NCBI RefSeq assembly: GCF_025698545.1
Contig: NC_068569.1
Coordinates: 11,408,001 to 11,472,000, forward strand
From: Gossypium raimondii
Taxonomy: Eukaryota > Streptophyta > Magnoliopsida > Malvales > Malvaceae
Reading direction: 5' to 3'
Length of the DNA: 64,000 bases
The notes under the pieces were generated by a model. It saw nothing but the letters and a program-made list of their open reading frames with translations. It searched no databases and was not told the DNA's origin. Position 1 is the stretch's first letter. Each line of letters opens with the position of its first letter. The position numbers and the translations under genes are program-made. Of this stretch, positions 2,432-13,881 are shown in pieces.

Positions 2432-2497
2432 ATGGTCATTTTTTGTGAAGAACTGAATAGACTGAATTCGATCGATCCTTTACTCGGAATTACTAAT

Positions 2498-4862
2498 ATG
2501 GCCAACGAATTAGCATTTGATCTGATCTATGGAGTTGGTGACGAGAAGGATATTTTCGAGCTTTCATATGCTACATTTGCTGAAGAGTTGCAGCTCCAGG
2601 AGATCCTGAAGGAGTCCATGATGGGTTCTGAAAAGGAGCTGGAAGATGCAGCTAGTGAAGCCAACCAGAAACTTGAGTGTCTTGTCAGCCATGGATTATC
2701 CAACACGGAATGTGCTATCTCCCATGTCTCAGAGATTCATGAGCCTCAGTCGTTCAATAAACAGGGGTCAGCAAGATGGCGTCCCCAGCAGAGGTTTGGT
2801 TACATTGAGCAACAGAGGATAAACTGGGATGACAAAGGAAGAGACCGTTTCAGGTGGAGGAAACCTACAGGGTGGCACAACATTAGGGGAAGAAGGGTGG
2901 GAGATGTTCCTCAAACCAGTTCCAGGTCAGTGATTTTTACTTATTTGTAACAGATGGAAAAATACATATTTTAACTAATATCTGAAACATTGGTTCTCCA
3001 GCAAGGAATTTCATGCAAAAACCAGTTCCTGGGGTGAAGGCAGTCCTCTTGTTGGCACTGGTAATATTGAAGATCCTAAGGGTAAAGGCAAAGCCATAGA
3101 TGATGGCTGGTTGCTGGTCTCCAAATGGAAATCCGAAAGCAGGGGTGGAAACAGTGTTGACAAACAGCAGGTTGATCTCGGGCATCCTAATCATTTAAAG
3201 GGTTCAAAAGATGACGACACAAGTGCTGTTCACGAAGATGATTGCGAGTCCTTGGATGATGAGGATGACTTTGATTCCGATGATAGTCAAAAGAGCTACG
3301 AGAGTCGCAAGAAGAGTAAATGGTTTAAGGAATTTTTTGAGAGAATGGACGCCTTGAATGCAGAGGAGATTGATCAAACCCTGTGGCACTGTCCAGCATG
3401 CCAAGGTGGTCCAGGTGCCATCAAATGGTACAGAAGCATTAGTGACCTGATAGCACATTCCAAAAAGATTGGATCGAGAAGGGTGAAGTTACATCAAGAG
3501 CTCGCGATGCTTCTAGAAGGGGAGTTGTGCATTAGGGGAACATCAGTTTCTCCTCCTGCTGACCCAATTGTTGGTACTTGGAAAGGTTTAAAAGAGGAGG
3601 CAAGAGATCATCAAGTAGTTTGGCCTCCCATGGTTGTCATTATGAACACAATGACAAGCAATTCAAAGGATGGAAAGGTAAAAATGATCAGAAAATCTTT
3701 TGGTTTTTAATAGTTGAACCAATGATGCTGGTTTCTAGCACTGATTAAATTGAAAATTGTAATATACATTATATTATCTAATATGCATGCAATTTACAAC
3801 TTCTTTCAGTTTGTTGGCATGGGAAGTCATGAGCTTCTTGAGCACTTCAGCTCGTTTCCTGCTTTAAAGGCTCAACATTCCTATGGTCCTCAAGGTCACC
3901 GTGGTTTGAGCGTCTTGATCTTTGAGAGCTCGGCGGTAGGTTATTTAGAAGCCGAACGACTGCATCAGAATTTTTTGGACCAAGGATTGGATAAATTTGC
4001 TTGGAATTCTTGTACAAACGAAGTCCTGCCAGGAGGAGAGCGCCAACTTTATGGTTTCATGGCAGTGAAAGAGGACCTGGATTGCTTCAACCAGCATTGC
4101 CAAGGTGCTCTTTGTCATTCATACTGTTAAAGGTTCTAAGTAAATGCCCTGGATCATTTTAACTGATTTAATCTCAAACTAACGTGTATGAGATTTACAC
4201 TTGCTTCCAGTTCGTATTCTCTTCAAGTGATTGACATGCTATTACTATTGATCAGGTAAATCAAAGCTCAAATATGAGCTCAAATCATATCAAGAAGCGG
4301 TTCTGAATGAAATCAAGAAAATGAGGGAGGATAGCCAGCAACTTATCCGGCTCAAGGATAAGCTTGAAGAAGAAATAAAACGAGCAAAAACTCTTGAAAG
4401 ATCAGTCGATGATCTAAGTAGGAACCTGCAACAGAGAATGAAGGACATCTGCATATTTGAACGAAGGGTCAAATCACTGCATGAAGATAACAAAGAAGAG
4501 GTAATAATACTCTTTTAACAAATTCCACACAAAATTTTCCTTTTATGCATAAGGTTGTTAGCTACTATATAATACATATAGGTAACTGAAACTTGAGTGG
4601 CGTAATTTCTCAGGTGGAATCCCAGGAGATCTTTTATAAGGATCAAATTAAAATTCTGGAAGCAAGAGTGAAAGAGCTTGATCACAAGTTGAAGGAATCT
4701 GGCGCAAGTCCTTTACATACAGGGGAACCTGAACCTGCCATGTCCGGCCTATTGGAGGAGGAGCACACTCCATATCAGTACAACAGCAACCTCGGCATTG
4801 ATGAAGATTCAAGTTTGGAGAATGGAAAGCTTCCAAGCAAATCCAATGAAAATGGAGATTGA
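2498..4862 (+). CDS. SGS3-like protein with an RBR-like N-terminal leader
   Basis: Five exons, joined in frame: 2498-2925, 3002-3677, 3810-4104, 4256-4500, 4614-4862, giving 630 aa. SGS3 family proteins bind double-stranded RNA with 5' overhangs and help RDR6 make secondary siRNAs in cytoplasmic siRNA bodies. Residues 271-276 (WHCPAC) open the zinc-finger XS domain. The XS domain follows, from WPPMVVIMNT to the end of exon 3 (ending near FNQHCQG). Exon 4 encodes a coiled coil. A very acidic stretch (EDDCESLDDEDDFDSDD) precedes the zinc finger, as in Arabidopsis SGS3. The C-terminus after the coiled coil (exon 5) does not look like Arabidopsis SGS3. Odd feature: residues 1-45, with AEELQLQEIL at 28-37, resemble the start of the two RBR ligases downstream and not the usual SGS3 start. 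I chose the ATG at 2498 because it aligns with the MAQ/MAK starts of those genes; an upstream in-frame ATG at 2432 would add 22 residues. Confidence 0.85.
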
Positions 4863-5694
4863 AAACATTCAAACCACCAGCTTTTAAGACTTTACTGCAA
4901 CTCATAAAGTAATATCAGTGTAGGATTATATATCCCTGTGGATGCGTTGTAGGGTTGGGTGCTATTTGTTTATAAGAACCAACTATTATTTCATAATTTC
5001 TTCATGATAATTACATGGGTACTTTATGTTTATTAAAAAAAAGTTTTTTTGATACAATATTGAGGGTAAGGATGAGAATCACATGATTTAAATTCGCATG
5101 TTGTATCAAATGGATATCCAACACAAACTTAAATATCGATTTACACATGTCAAGACACTGGAAAGAAGTTGAAACGACAGTGATTTTTAATTGGCCTTTT
5201 AACTTTACAAAAACAAATAATTTTATCCATCAATTTAATTTTTCACACGACGTTGCATAAAAATTAATTGAATATTAATGTATCATCTATGTGGCAATAA
5301 AAAAATTAAATAAAGGGTTAAAATAAATTTTCCTTTTGTAAAATTAAAGTATCAAATAAATTATTATACCCTTTTAATTTTCTTCTACGCCGAGAAGTAC
5401 TGGATTCTCTTTCGAATAGATCCTGAAAGGAGAAGGAAAGCTGGAATGCCACCAGACGTCTATTATTGAATTCACCCAACCCGATAGTACCCATTTTTGG
5501 AACGTCCAGTGCCAAAGTCACGGAATGGGTAAGTCACCAATCCCTAAAACGGATTATGTAATGTACTTTACCCGCTAGGTTAGGGGGCGATTTTACCAGA
5601 GGTTTATATTGTATCAATCCACCCTTGTGTGCGTGATTCCTGTTGAAGCATATACTCGAGTAATTATCTAGGATAAGGCGATATCCTAGATGCT
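4863..5694. other. Intergenic region, 3' flank of the SGS3-like gene
   Basis: The 3' flank of the SGS3-like gene, then AT-rich DNA. From about 5390 to 5690 the composition becomes more balanced; short open stretches there match nothing I recognise. Because a plastid fragment follows directly, this part may also be organelle-derived, but I cannot show it. Confidence 0.35.
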
Positions 5695-5697
5695 ATG

Positions 5698-5970
5698 GGG
5701 AATTTTTCACACATAAAGTTTTTTAATCGGAGAATTCTTCATTTTTGTCTTAGAAATAAGGTCGATATTGAGTCCTGGGTCGGTACCAGTACCAAGAGTA
5801 ACAAAAATATTAAGACTGTCGTTAAGAATTATCAAATAATTGATAAAATGAACCTTTTTTATTTCACAATTTATCAAGATCAAGAAAGCAACCCATCTAA
5901 TAAAAAAGGAAGCCATTTTGATTGGATGAGACTGAATGAAGAAATACTAAGTCATCCTATACCTGGAACA
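5698..5970 (+). pseudogene. ycf1: Nuclear plastid DNA fragment (ycf1 C-terminal part)
   Basis: The + strand encodes about 90 codons that read as the C-terminal part of plastid Ycf1 (Tic214): FNRRILHFCLRNKVDIESW, then KNYQIIDKMNLFYFTIYQDQ and NKKGSHFDWMRLNEEILSH. The frame is still open, so the transfer may be fairly young, but it covers only a small slice of a gene that normally encodes some 1,800 residues. There is no plastid gene context on either side and the match stops after about LSHPIP. It is best read as a NUPT and not a gene. The identification rests on remembered Ycf1 sequence; an alignment to any rosid plastome would settle the edges. Confidence 0.75.
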
Positions 5971-6550
5971 TTGCATTGTAGAACAAAGAGCAATAATAAT
6001 AAATATTAATATTCAAATGTTGTATAAAAAGAATCTGATTCTAAATTTTTTTGGGAAATTAAATAAAGTTTTCAATGTAGTTTATGTACTAAGAATGAAT
6101 ATTGAGAGATTATTAAAAAAAAACAATCTCTAAGAAAGTTAAAACATTTGAACATACCTAAATTAATAACTATGAAGAGATTCATGGTTTCAAAGACTTA
6201 AACTTTTCCCTACAAAATTAGTAAAAGAAATGAAGCTTATAGAATTATATATACGAATTCGAATTGTATAGTGGTATAATTATAATTGTGCAGAAATATA
6301 TGTGCTTTATTTCCCACTTAAAACCAATAAAGGCGCTTGTTCAACTTGTACATGAAGTACTTGCTTTAGAGAAGTCAAGAAGTCAAGATTTATCGATTAA
6401 CGGGGACGTTACCACTTAATGAAGTAGTTGAATCAGGGTAGGGCTCTTCATTGCTAAATTACTTGAAAAGCCATGCCGTTTACTCCATTTTATTAAAAGA
6501 AAAAAAACAATTGAACCTTGTGGAGTGTAGTCAGTCTTTCGGTACCCATC
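5971..6550. other. Intergenic region and upstream flank of RBR gene 1
   Basis: AT-rich DNA with no gene. The last 200 bases before 6551 should hold the promoter and 5' leader of the first RBR ligase gene. I see no clear TATA box in a fixed position. Confidence 0.4.
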
Positions 6551-7704
6551 ATGGCACAAATCACACCATCATCTGATCTTGATTTTGTTGATGATTTTTA
6601 CTACTCGGCACTCTTTGATGAAGACGAACATGAAATCTTTCCACCATCTGACGAAAAGTATGCCGAGGAGTTGCAGTTTCAAGAGGCTCTCATGTCATCC
6701 ACCGTCTTTTCCAAAATGGGTAACAATGACATCTGCAACCCATGCATCGCCCATGCTTCATCACCCCTGTTAATCCAAGCCGTGCCTCTGCCCGAGTTAC
6801 TGGAGATGGAAACAGAGGAAACCGGTGAATCCTCCTTAAGCTTCTGCGAGATTTGCGCCGAAAGGAAAGAAAACGATCAGATGTTCATTACGCAAAGCTG
6901 CAACCACTCTTACTGCTCCGATTGCATTAGCAAGCATGTTTCGACGAGGGTTGAAGAAAACTTAACCGTAGTAAGGTGCCCTGGAGTGAATTGCGAGACT
7001 GTCTTGGAACTCGATGAGTGTAGGCCTCTGCTTCCCGAGGTGGTAATCCATCGGTGGGAAGATGCTCTCTGTCAGGAGTTTATTAGTGCATCCCAGAGAT
7101 TTTATTGCCCGTTCAGGGATTGTTCAGCCTCACTGCTGAATGATGGGGGTGAAGTTATTAGAGAAGCGCAGTGCCCATTCTGCCACAGATTGTTTTGTGC
7201 GCAGTGTTGTGTGCCATGGCATCCGGGGATTGCATGTGAGAATTTCCAGAGGCTGAATGAGTATGAAAGAGGGAGAGAAGATCTCATGGTGAGGGAACTT
7301 GCCAAGGAGAATAAATGGGCTAGGTGCCCCAAGTGCAAATACTATGTTGAAAGAACAGCAGGTTGCCCACACATGGTTTGCAGGTCAGTTAATATTCTAG
7401 TCATTTGTAATACTATTCATCAATGATACTGAATGATTGTCCTTGTCTTTGGAATTTGGATATTAGATTTTTTTTATGCTCTATATGCTGGAACGTGATT
7501 AATTCCCTTGAGCTCATATAGATGTGTTTAAACTAGACTCTTTTAGACTTACGGAACTGAAAATGATTTAAAGCTTCTTAAAAAGAGTACTTGGAGTTGA
7601 TAAGGGAGTTGTCCTATGATTTTGGTCGCAGGTGTCAGTTCGAGTTTTGTTATGGTTGCGGAGAAAAGTGGAGTAACACTCATGGTGGCTGCCAAAGGGA
7701 TTAA
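6551..7704 (+). CDS. RBR-type E3 ubiquitin ligase (copy 1)
   Basis: Two exons, 6551-7383 and 7632-7704, giving 301 aa. The protein has the RING1-IBR-RING2 layout of RBR ligases, which pass ubiquitin from an E2 to a catalytic Cys in RING2 and then to the substrate. RING1 starts at CEIC (residues 99-102) with CNHSYCSDC following. The IBR region runs from FYCPFRDC to PWHPGIAC (about 184-229). RING2 runs from RCPKC (258) to HGGC near the end. Cys272 in AGCPHMVC is the expected catalytic residue. The intron lies just after it, in phase 2. The N-terminal leader has AEELQFQEAL at 38-47, a motif shared with the next gene and with the SGS3-like gene. I start at 6551 (MAQ) because it matches the MAK start of copy 2; an in-frame ATG at 6518 would add 11 residues. 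At about 300 aa this is a short plant RBR. The substrate is unknown. Confidence 0.9.
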
Positions 7705-9895: not shown

Positions 9896-10888
9896 ATGGC
9901 AAAAGTTTCATCTGATTTCGATTTTGCAGAAGAGGTTTATTGGTCAGTCCTTGATGGAAACGAAGGAGGTAATTTGGAAGACCTAGATGCCCTGTTAGCT
10001 GAAAAGTTGCAATTTCAAGAAGCAATATTCTTGTCGGTCAAAGAAAACGTCTCATCTTCGTCCTCAACCTCAAGCTCAACGTTGAAGGTGACAAGTTCGT
10101 CGATGCCTGAGCACAACAAGCCAGGGAAATCTAAAAAAAGAGTCGGTCCATCCTCCTTAAGTTACTGTGAGATATGTTATGATAGAAAAGAAAGGCATCA
10201 AATGTTCAGAATCTCGGGTTGCTCTCATTCATTTTGTGCTGGTTGTATTAGCACATACGTAAAGACAAGGCTAGAGCAAAACATAACCATAATCATGTGC
10301 CCAAGGGAGAACTGCAAAGTCCCATTGGAGCTTGAAGCGTGTAAGCCTCGGTTTCCTAAAGAGGTGATCGAACTTTGGGGGGATTTACTACGCGACGAAC
10401 TACTTTGTGCGACGGGTGGGCAACTTTACTGTCCTTTCAAGGATTGTTCAGCTTTGTTGCTGAATGATAACCACGAAGTCATAGCAGAAACAGAGTGCCC
10501 CTACTGCCACAGGTTGCTCTGTGCTCGATGTAAAGTTTCATGGCATTCAGGGATCAGCTGTGAGGAATATCAGAAGCTGAGCGAAGATGAGAGAGGAAGT
10601 GAAGACCTGATGGTGAGGAACCTTGCCAAAGAGAAAAAATGGAATCGTTGTCCTCGTTGCCATATCATAGTTGAAAGAACCGAAGGTTGCCTACATATGA
10701 CTTGCTGGTAAGTCTATGAATTATGCTTGTTTGCTTGCTTAGAAAGTAATTCGAGAAATTCGTGCTGTTTCGTTATGCGTCTAATTACGAATCTTGTTGA
10801 CGCCTGTGGTTGCAGGTGTAAGTACGAATTTTGTTATGCGTGTGGAGCAGAGTGGACTCATTATCATGGTGGCTGTCAGGGCAACTGA
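9896..10888 (+). CDS. RBR-type E3 ubiquitin ligase (copy 2)
   Basis: Two exons, 9896-10707 and 10816-10888, giving 294 aa. It is a tandem paralogue of copy 1, with the same RING1-IBR-RING2 order and one phase-2 intron at the same place. RING1 begins at YCEICYDRKE with CSHSFCAGC. The IBR runs from LYCPFKDC to WHSGISC. RING2 has RCPRC, then EGCLHMTC with Cys265 as the expected catalytic residue, then CYACG and HGGC. The leader has AEKLQFQEAI at 35-44. A low-complexity Ser/Thr stretch (about 51-65) separates the leader from RING1 and differs from copy 1. Exon 2 is exactly 73 nt in both genes. All zinc ligands I can count are present, so the protein looks functional; substrate and partners are unknown. 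Confidence 0.9.
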
Positions 10889-12684: not shown

Positions 12685-13881
12685 TTAATCGTCTGATGAT
12701 GGCGGAGGTGGGAAACGTGACACGAGTTGAGCCATTTGATCCTCCAAATAAAAAATCCGAGGCATTAAGGCATCGAAACGAGCATCTACATGCTGGGAAA
12801 GACCATGAATGGCATCAAGGATGGCTGAAGTGCGAGGTGACGGTGGTGGAGGTAAGGCAAGTACCTCCTCCTCGGGTTGTACTTCTCCTTGTAATTGTTG
12901 TGCCGCTGCCGCCTGTAGTTTGTCTTTATGAACCCATTTACCATCCTCCTTATAGTAGCCACAGCTATGAACAGAGGAAATATTGATGAAGCTATCGATG
13001 GCTCGACCTGGATCAACAGACACCTTGAGTTTAAGTTGGCGAAAGATGAAAGAGAGAAAGGTGCCATACTTAAGGGTTTTGTTGCTAGAGAGGGGCCAAC
13101 GAACAACCTCAATCATGTTAAGGAACATGAGGACCGGAAGGTTAAGATGATGCTTAGTTTGAAAACAATGAATGAACCAATAATCGGTTTTGCGCAAGAT
13201 CGCATGTTTGTTTGTAGGGTTAATGGTCCAAGTGAGGATGAGATGAAGGATCCGATCATGTAATTCTAAATCACTAGCATGATCATCTTTAAGGATTAAG
13301 GTCGAAGGGAAAGAACCTAAAAAAGTCGGATCACCATCGAGAGGAATCCTAAGGTATTGAGACAAAATGGCAGGGGTAATGGTTACTTTCTCACCCATGA
13401 CATACGAAGTGATTGCAGTAACAGTTTTACCATCATCACCGTATTTGAATTCGGCATTAAAGTAAAAGACTCGGACGAGGTTGTCATGACAAGGGCCCGT
13501 AAGTTGGAGGCAATAAAGCCAACCCCATTCGTTCAAGGTGGAAAGGTGTCGAAAATCGAGTTCATCGCGAAGAAAGGGAAGGTCAATAGGGCGAGAAATA
13601 TGAACATTTCGAGTAGCAAAGGAAGTCTTGAATTTATTAAGATCGTCATGACCGCGGAAGCAATCAGATACGGACGATGGATAAACAGCACTAGATGACG
13701 CACCATCCGTCCTAGCCCTTTTCTTAGTAGCTCTATTATAGGAGGTATGAGGAGGCATGATAAACAATTTTTTGTAGGAGTAAGGGAAGAGTAAGTGTGC
13801 TAGGTGAAGACTAAGGAGTACTAAGAAAAGAACTAAGACAACATAAGAAGGATAGAAGAAAACCTGCGAAAACAAACGCAA
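12685..13881 (-). mobile_element. Fossil ORF of the putative plant transposon protein family
   Basis: A single minus-strand open frame of up to 398 codons. The more likely start is the ATG at 13758 (MPPHTSYNRATKKRARTDG), giving 357 aa, because the upstream part is only a hydrophobic stretch. The middle (FRGHDDLNKF, then LDFRHLSTLNEWGW and PILSQYLRIP-like text) resembles the plant domain I know as putative plant transposon protein, common in cotton and legume genomes. The tail is Gln/Pro-rich (LALPPPPSP, FPPPPSSDD) with a coiled-coil-like stretch. I see no polymerase, integrase or terminal repeat joined to it in this window, so the class of element cannot be fixed. The ORF itself looks whole. 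It is annotated as a mobile-element fossil, not a host gene. Confidence 0.6.

Follow-up and report, generated by a model that had tools for sequence, protein, structure and literature searches.

The stretch of DNA analysed here (the window, 64 kb) corresponds to C5:11408001-11472000, and the genome searched comprised 750.8 Mb in 281 contigs. As shown in Table 1, the window contains a gene for an SGS3-like protein, which we named SGS3L. The gene has five exons between positions 2498 and 4862 of the forward strand and encodes 630 residues, and every intron begins with GT and ends with AG. Two genes of RBR ligases, RBR1 and RBR2, both with an open spliced frame, lie downstream of SGS3L on the same strand, and RING and IBR models match exon 1 of each.

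Table 1. Positions of SGS3L, RBR1 and RBR2 features in the window.
Feature	Position	Strand	Description
SGS3L exon 1	2498..2925	+	142 aa; RBR-type leader and a stretch of unknown origin; ends in phase 2
Leader block, SGS3L residues 15-45	2540..2632	+	Against RBR1 25-55: 15/31 aa and 53/93 nt identical
UIM-like core LQEILKES, SGS3L residues 33-40	2594..2617	+	Ile where the consensus has Ala
SGS3L intron 1	2926..3001	+	76 nt, GT-AG, phase 2
SGS3L exon 2	3002..3677	+	Acidic stretch, zf-XS (residues 273-311), start of XS
SGS3L exon 3	3810..4104	+	Most of the XS domain (345-459 overall)
SGS3L exon 4	4256..4500	+	Coiled-coil region, paralogue-like
SGS3L exon 5	4614..4862	+	Short divergent C-terminus, unmatched in paralogue loci
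RBR1 exon 1	6551..7383	+	RING1, IBR; leader residues 1-55; ends in phase 2
RBR1 exon 2	7632..7704	+	End of RING2; stop 7702-7704
RBR2 exon 1	9896..10707	+	RING1, IBR; leader residues 1-52; ends in phase 2
RBR2 exon 2	10816..10888	+	End of RING2

Pfam models identified an XS domain in SGS3L at residues 345-459 (PF03468, E 3.6e-31, 108 bits against a cut-off of 25) and a zf-XS domain at residues 273-311 (PF03470, E 1.2e-5, 26 bits against a cut-off of 22). No RING1, IBR or RING2 match was found in SGS3L by Pfam at E 1. Judged from zf-XS, XS and the coiled coil, SGS3L is a divergent and apparently intact SGS3 paralogue. Its similarity to the paralogues is located in exons 2-4 and extends no further than residue 549 of 630. 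A search of the window at E 10 with the last coil of the paralogue L033 found nothing. An earlier note on this DNA had described the C-terminus as divergent, and these results bear it out. The canonical N- and C-terminal ends, which are usual in SGS3 and do not define the family, are both absent from SGS3L. Exon 1 is open throughout, and a clean donor joins it in frame to exon 2. No Met lies between residues 42 and 258, the latter being the first Met after exon 1, so that the protein needs exon 1 to provide its start. Intron 1 contains the branch-point-like word CTAAT, as read from the sequence. A counterpart of this intron was not seen in the SGS3-type paralogues of the genome.

Six SGS3-type genes were found in the genome, SGS3L included. 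Two of the other five are in tandem on C10, one is distant on C5, and C1 and C3 have one each. All five start with MSSRKG or MADATD and none has the leader of SGS3L, so that SGS3L starts differently from all five. In four of the five a single frame stays open from the start through the whole exon that precedes XS; in L030 this frame is broken. Canonical SGS3 is represented here by the MSSRKG-start genes L030-L032 of the same genome and not by Arabidopsis SGS3 itself (AT5G23570 in the accessible part of the review PMC11371168). These genes share with SGS3L the zf-XS, XS and coiled-coil regions, the acidic stretch and the SQKSYESRKKSKWF block, and the compared core pieces are 56-62% identical. 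SGS3L differs from them in its 142-residue exon 1, its extra intron, an exon 2 without Met before residue 258 and the missing last coil. The MADATD-start pair, L033 and L034, forms another divergent SGS3 lineage with 53-54% core identity to SGS3L. Unlike SGS3L, these two have an N-terminus that can be aligned to the MSSRKG type (L031 with L033, 0 of 2000 shuffles; L032 with L034, 32 of 2000) and lack the RBR leader.

A tree was built from the six SGS3-type genes and three FDM-type genes. The FDM type stood apart on a long branch and SGS3L was sister to the other five SGS3 genes with a support of 86, so SGS3L groups with SGS3-type and not with FDM/IDN2-type XS proteins. The sister position is provisional, because the SGS3L branch is long, the outgroup is distant and the two C10 rows are incomplete. 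FDDM1/2, which are called 'SGS3-like', were considered as relatives and rejected; they are IDN2-like proteins with XH and belong to a different branch according to the accessible part of PMC8872474.

The tandem canonical genes L030 and L031 (C10:16.675M and 16.698M) are 99.65% identical over 2 kb. Three single-base gaps separate them in the first 1.5 kb, and the frame break falls in a different exon of each. L032 on C5 may thus be the sole intact canonical SGS3, or the breaks may be an assembly error.

SGS3L starts with MANELAFD and carries AEELQLQEIL at residues 28-37, and the leaders of RBR1 and RBR2 carry AEELQFQEAL at 38-47 and AEKLQFQEAI at 35-44, exactly as the earlier note had read them. 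Exon 1 of SGS3L was compared with RBR1 residues 1-95. The best alignment was an ungapped block of 31 residues (SGS3L 15-45, RBR1 25-55) with 15 identities. Its BLOSUM62 score was 61, the shuffled sequences having a mean of 28.3 and an sd of 5.2, and 2 of 10,000 shuffles were as good. The leaders of RBR1 and RBR2 scored 81 with each other (0 of 10,000 shuffles). The leader of SGS3L scored only 36 against that of RBR2 alone, which was not significant (1017 of 10,000 shuffles), so RBR2 by itself adds little. In local alignments of the leader DNA, none of 2000 shuffles was as good against RBR1 and four were as good against RBR2. The likeness to two RBR leaders that had been proposed held for RBR1 and, at the protein level, was weaker than stated for RBR2 taken alone.

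The 45-residue leader was also used as a query against the six-frame translation of the window, with composition correction off. The top non-self match was the leader of RBR1 (E 2.4e-4, 28.1 bits), and the leader of RBR2 came only third among non-self matches (E 1.1). With the RBR1 leader as the query, the first two non-self matches in the window were RBR2 (1.9e-6) and SGS3L (4.2e-4). The leader match was missing at E 5 from the output of a default tblastn of whole SGS3L against the window. A genome-wide search with the 45-residue leader found only itself, as is expected at 28 bits. We then ranked 971 open segments with a length of 50 residues or more, taken from the window and 24 fetched loci. 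Non-self scores of the RBR1 leader were 80 for RBR2, 61 for SGS3L, 56 for a distant RBR gene, L037, and 49 for an FDM-type locus. Those of the SGS3L leader were 61 for RBR1 and at most 40 for all others; RBR2 and L037, with 36 each, sit among the chance scores. Taken together, these comparisons point to a resemblance between the SGS3L and RBR1 leaders that is real but modest. The RBR-type leader marks this RBR group without defining the family, and SGS3L has it toward RBR1 only.

The motif A[D/E]x[L/F]QxQE was back-translated and searched over 750 Mb. It occurred at 54 places in the genome, and the reversed control occurred at 4. Thirty-five of the 54 read AEDLQAQE and 6 are close to it; these 41 presumably belong to one repeat family. 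Thirteen places remain when they are set aside, and 3 of the 13 are the three neighbouring genes of the window. No RBR leader was seen at the 6 inspected among the other 10. One open reading-frame start, at about base 328 of L057 (C8:59118228), has AELLQLQE near the first Met of an apparently unrelated gene, which shows that chance can produce the motif by itself.

Exon 1 might be an unrelated N-terminal extension, in which a short amphipathic helix came to look like an RBR leader without common descent. We regard this as doubtful, though deserving to be taken seriously. Helices of Glu, Gln and Leu are common, the match covers 31 residues in one of two neighbouring RBR genes, and both the RBR2 comparison and the occurrence at L057 are of the kind that chance would give. 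Against it, the best match in the whole window is the leader of a neighbouring gene, similarly far from the start codon, the leader DNA aligns with RBR1 better than any shuffle, and the three neighbours make up 3 of the 13 motif places once the repeated word is set aside. Since the SGS3L leader matches RBR1 alone, chance was rated slightly higher, and a fusion slightly lower, than would otherwise have been the case.

The explanation we prefer is that SGS3L is an old SGS3 paralogue which received a new 5' exon, its leader coming from an RBR ligase of the neighbouring kind; we put the probability of this at roughly 0.57. An RBR-type 5' end is the best supported reading because of the similarity to RBR1, the similar distance from the start codon, the position of the genes as neighbours on the same strand and the absence of the leader from all five paralogues. 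The first 45 residues of exon 1 would have come from an RBR leader through an old rearrangement in the same-strand cluster. The new exon would then be spliced by the phase-2 intron onto an SGS3 body that has no start codon of its own. No second copy of the fusion was found among those candidates from the genome searches that were scored, and tblastn found no RBR or SGS3 gene at E 1 in the 8 kb before the window. Titles and abstract openings, which cover the literature in part, contained no SGS3 gene with an RBR leader.

Comparison with the paralogues also bears on where the join lies. The N-termini of L031-L034 were used, L030 being a near-copy of L031. Exon 1 had been said to hold the leader together with an SGS3-specific part, which proved incorrect: when residues 46-142 were set against the four N-termini, 376 of 2000 shuffles did as well even in the best case, and the exon 1 tail was rejected as an SGS3 N-terminus. 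The start of exon 2 had at most a weak likeness to the paralogue N-termini (of 2000 shuffles, as good were 67 with L031, 207 with L032, 1529 with L033 and 199 with L034). The simplest history suggested by these comparisons is that the join lies at the intron and not inside exon 1, a new first exon having been spliced onto the SGS3 body. The earlier proposal that an SGS3 copy captured the 5' end of an RBR gene thus keeps its core, supported by the likeness to RBR1 and by the five paralogues without the leader, and has to be altered in the place of the join and in the age of the event.

All of exon 1 could also descend from an RBR exon. In this case exon 1 and its donor would be a shrunken RBR exon 1, the leader having been kept, the RING/IBR centre deleted and the RBR donor spliced to SGS3. 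The first introns of SGS3L, RBR1 and RBR2 are all in phase 2. The 52 nt at 2813-2864 match, in frame and colinearly, the stretch of RBR1 that follows the IBR (score 18, 0 of 400 shuffles); among control chunks 2 of 608 reached 18, and these two overlap at one place. The donor region of SGS3L exon 1 scored 15 against RBR1, other pairs scoring 6 to 10 except RBR1 with RBR2 (28), and none of 13 donor-like sites elsewhere reached 15. The protein level gave a different result. Residues 46-142 were null against RBR1 (945 of 3000 shuffles), RBR2 (519 of 3000) and L037 (1178 of 3000), and against a profile of four RBR proteins (63 of 150). The best path of whole exon 1 through that profile, an uncontrolled score, was 27.2 and ended at residue 122. 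A DNA test of the same type as for the 52 nt was null against RBR2 (120 of 400 shuffles). When the shuffles left the splice word unchanged, 53 of 1000 equalled the donor match against RBR1 and 103 of 1000 that against RBR2. When the two sides of the donor were taken separately, the intron gave 36 and 37 of 1000 for RBR1 and RBR2 and the exon gave 895 and 640, and the RBR1 and RBR2 introns are not alike (895 of 1000). The tail of exon 1 as an RBR remnant is therefore suggestive in its DNA toward RBR1 only and null at the protein level. The idea that an RBR gene was rebuilt was not established, and we consider it unlikely. That the leader is real in the sequence and absent from the protein, because transcription or translation starts downstream, at Met41 or Met42 just past the leader helix, and skips most of the leader, or because exon 1 belongs to another transcript, seems very unlikely: by the Kozak rule Met42 has a good context (A at -3, G at +4), but so has the ATG at 2498, which appears to be preceded by a TATA-like run about 80 nt upstream, and exon 1 is open and continues in frame through its donor.

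If a first exon was indeed acquired from the RBR side, the next matters are its age and direction. The SGS3L and RBR1 leaders use identical codons for 6 of the 15 residues that they share and agree at 1 of 5 four-fold sites. The values are 11 of 21 codons and 3 of 8 sites for the RBR1 and RBR2 leaders, 70 of 128 codons and 18 of 43 sites for exon 1 of RBR1 and RBR2, and 29 of 61 codons and 10 of 26 sites for the core of SGS3L and L032. A recent capture was rejected, as the SGS3L and RBR1 leader codons are about as diverged as exon 1 of RBR1 and RBR2 or the core of SGS3L and L032. These small numbers place the leader codons near saturation, which makes the event an old one that may have come before or after the split of RBR1 and RBR2. 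Birth in the present tandem array, as had been suggested, does not agree with this: with a single four-fold site of five in common, the fusion is not a fresh product. A common promoter or 5'UTR was not convincing in the 300 nt upstream, where 12 of 400 shuffles were as good for SGS3L with RBR1, 283 of 400 for SGS3L with RBR2, and 213 of 400 for RBR1 with RBR2.

The distant gene L037 (C5:2847138-2847701) aligns to RBR1 from residue 7 onward. The N-termini of L031-L034 showed no likeness to the RBR leader (best, 561 of 3000 shuffles). The leader is thus an RBR trait and a novelty in SGS3L, being absent from the SGS3 paralogues and present in a looser form in L037. From this we infer that the transfer went from RBR to SGS3, which is the favoured direction. 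An RBR relic with frame breaks and stops, L061 (C5:11232001-11234500), stands some 175 kb ahead of the window, and its three forward frames showed no leader.

The leader contains a core that resembles a UIM. The accessible part of PMC8273247 gives the UIM consensus as x-Ac-Ac-Ac-x-Phi-x-x-Ala-Phi-x-x-Ser-x-x-Ac-x. In the accessible part of PMC8666691 the invariant Ala and Ser are said to be common to verified ATG8-binding UIMs, and the UIM of USP25 has Val at the invariant Ala, variation there being known among proteins classed as UIMs. The cores of RBR1 (FQEALMSS), RBR2 (FQEAIFLS) and L037 (LQLAIKLS) fit this pattern. LQEILKES of SGS3L keeps the frame and the Ser and has Ile for Ala, so that it departs from the Phi-x-x-Ala-x-x-x-Ser core. 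SGS3L shares the AExLQxQE word with the RBR1 and RBR2 leaders, and the UIM core is common to the three RBR ligases RBR1, RBR2 and L037. The Pfam UIM model did not match the leaders of RBR1, RBR2 or SGS3L (for SGS3L, none at E 10), and it matched the L037 leader peptide at E 0.0085 and 16.3 bits, under the curated cut-off of 21. Assignment to the UIM therefore rests on the pattern and the sub-threshold match of L037, hinting at a ubiquitin-binding leader in the RBR group of L037. In the PDB the SGS3L leader had no match, and the best E value for either RBR leader was 0.24. The AlphaFold prediction of SGS3L exon 1 was poor (mean pLDDT 45), with a helix at residues 16-40 whose pLDDT is about 40-60. 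AEELQLQE also fits what we take to be the pattern of the MIU, the inverted UIM. No MIU consensus was found in the accessible part of PMC2699339, where it was sought.

The RBR leader would then be a UIM-type helix, presumably ubiquitin-binding, and a contact of the ubiquitin or ATG8 type is probably weakened or repurposed in SGS3L by the change of Ala to Ile. If the gene is expressed as modelled, SGS3L would still bind RNA through XS and self-associate through its shortened coil, and the appended helix with its weakened or altered ubiquitin/ATG8 contact would change the partners or turnover of the protein. According to the accessible part of the review PMC11371168, ubiquitin and autophagy control the abundance and condensates of SGS3: it is ubiquitylated by SGIP1, it is removed by autophagy with VPg (where the proteasome acts too) or with VISP1, and VISP1 is a 71-residue plant peptide that attaches to ATG8 through a UIM and directs SGS3/RDR6 bodies into autophagy. 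VISP1 and the SGS3L leader could both represent a UIM-type helix on the SGS3 pathway. VISP1 is a separate peptide, whereas the helix of SGS3L sits in cis on the protein itself and has no Ala at the consensus position, and the two are likened here by description and not by sequence. By this analogy, a ligase-derived helix in cis might serve as a built-in signal, for ubiquitin, ATG8 or RBR-partner docking, that tunes SGS3L turnover or entry into condensates, as a VISP1 in cis; we offer this as a long shot. An SGS3 paralogue with a ligase-derived leader would offer a natural test of whether ubiquitin/autophagy control can be built in through a fusion. It would also be a further example of unrelated neighbours fused at the exon level, one in which genes of the donor kind still stand beside the product.

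The region between SGS3L and RBR1 contains, at window positions 5390-6010, two short pieces joined near 5658. Among the 40 of 68 candidates that were scored, one or the other of these pieces occurs at no fewer than 39 other places, several of them on small unplaced contigs with 93-97% identity. This pattern is as expected of organelle DNA inserts, and the frame at 5677-6009 resembles plastid ycf1. Long open frames are found on both sides of the cluster, at window positions 12685-13881 on the minus strand and at L060, and presumably encode plant transposon-type proteins.
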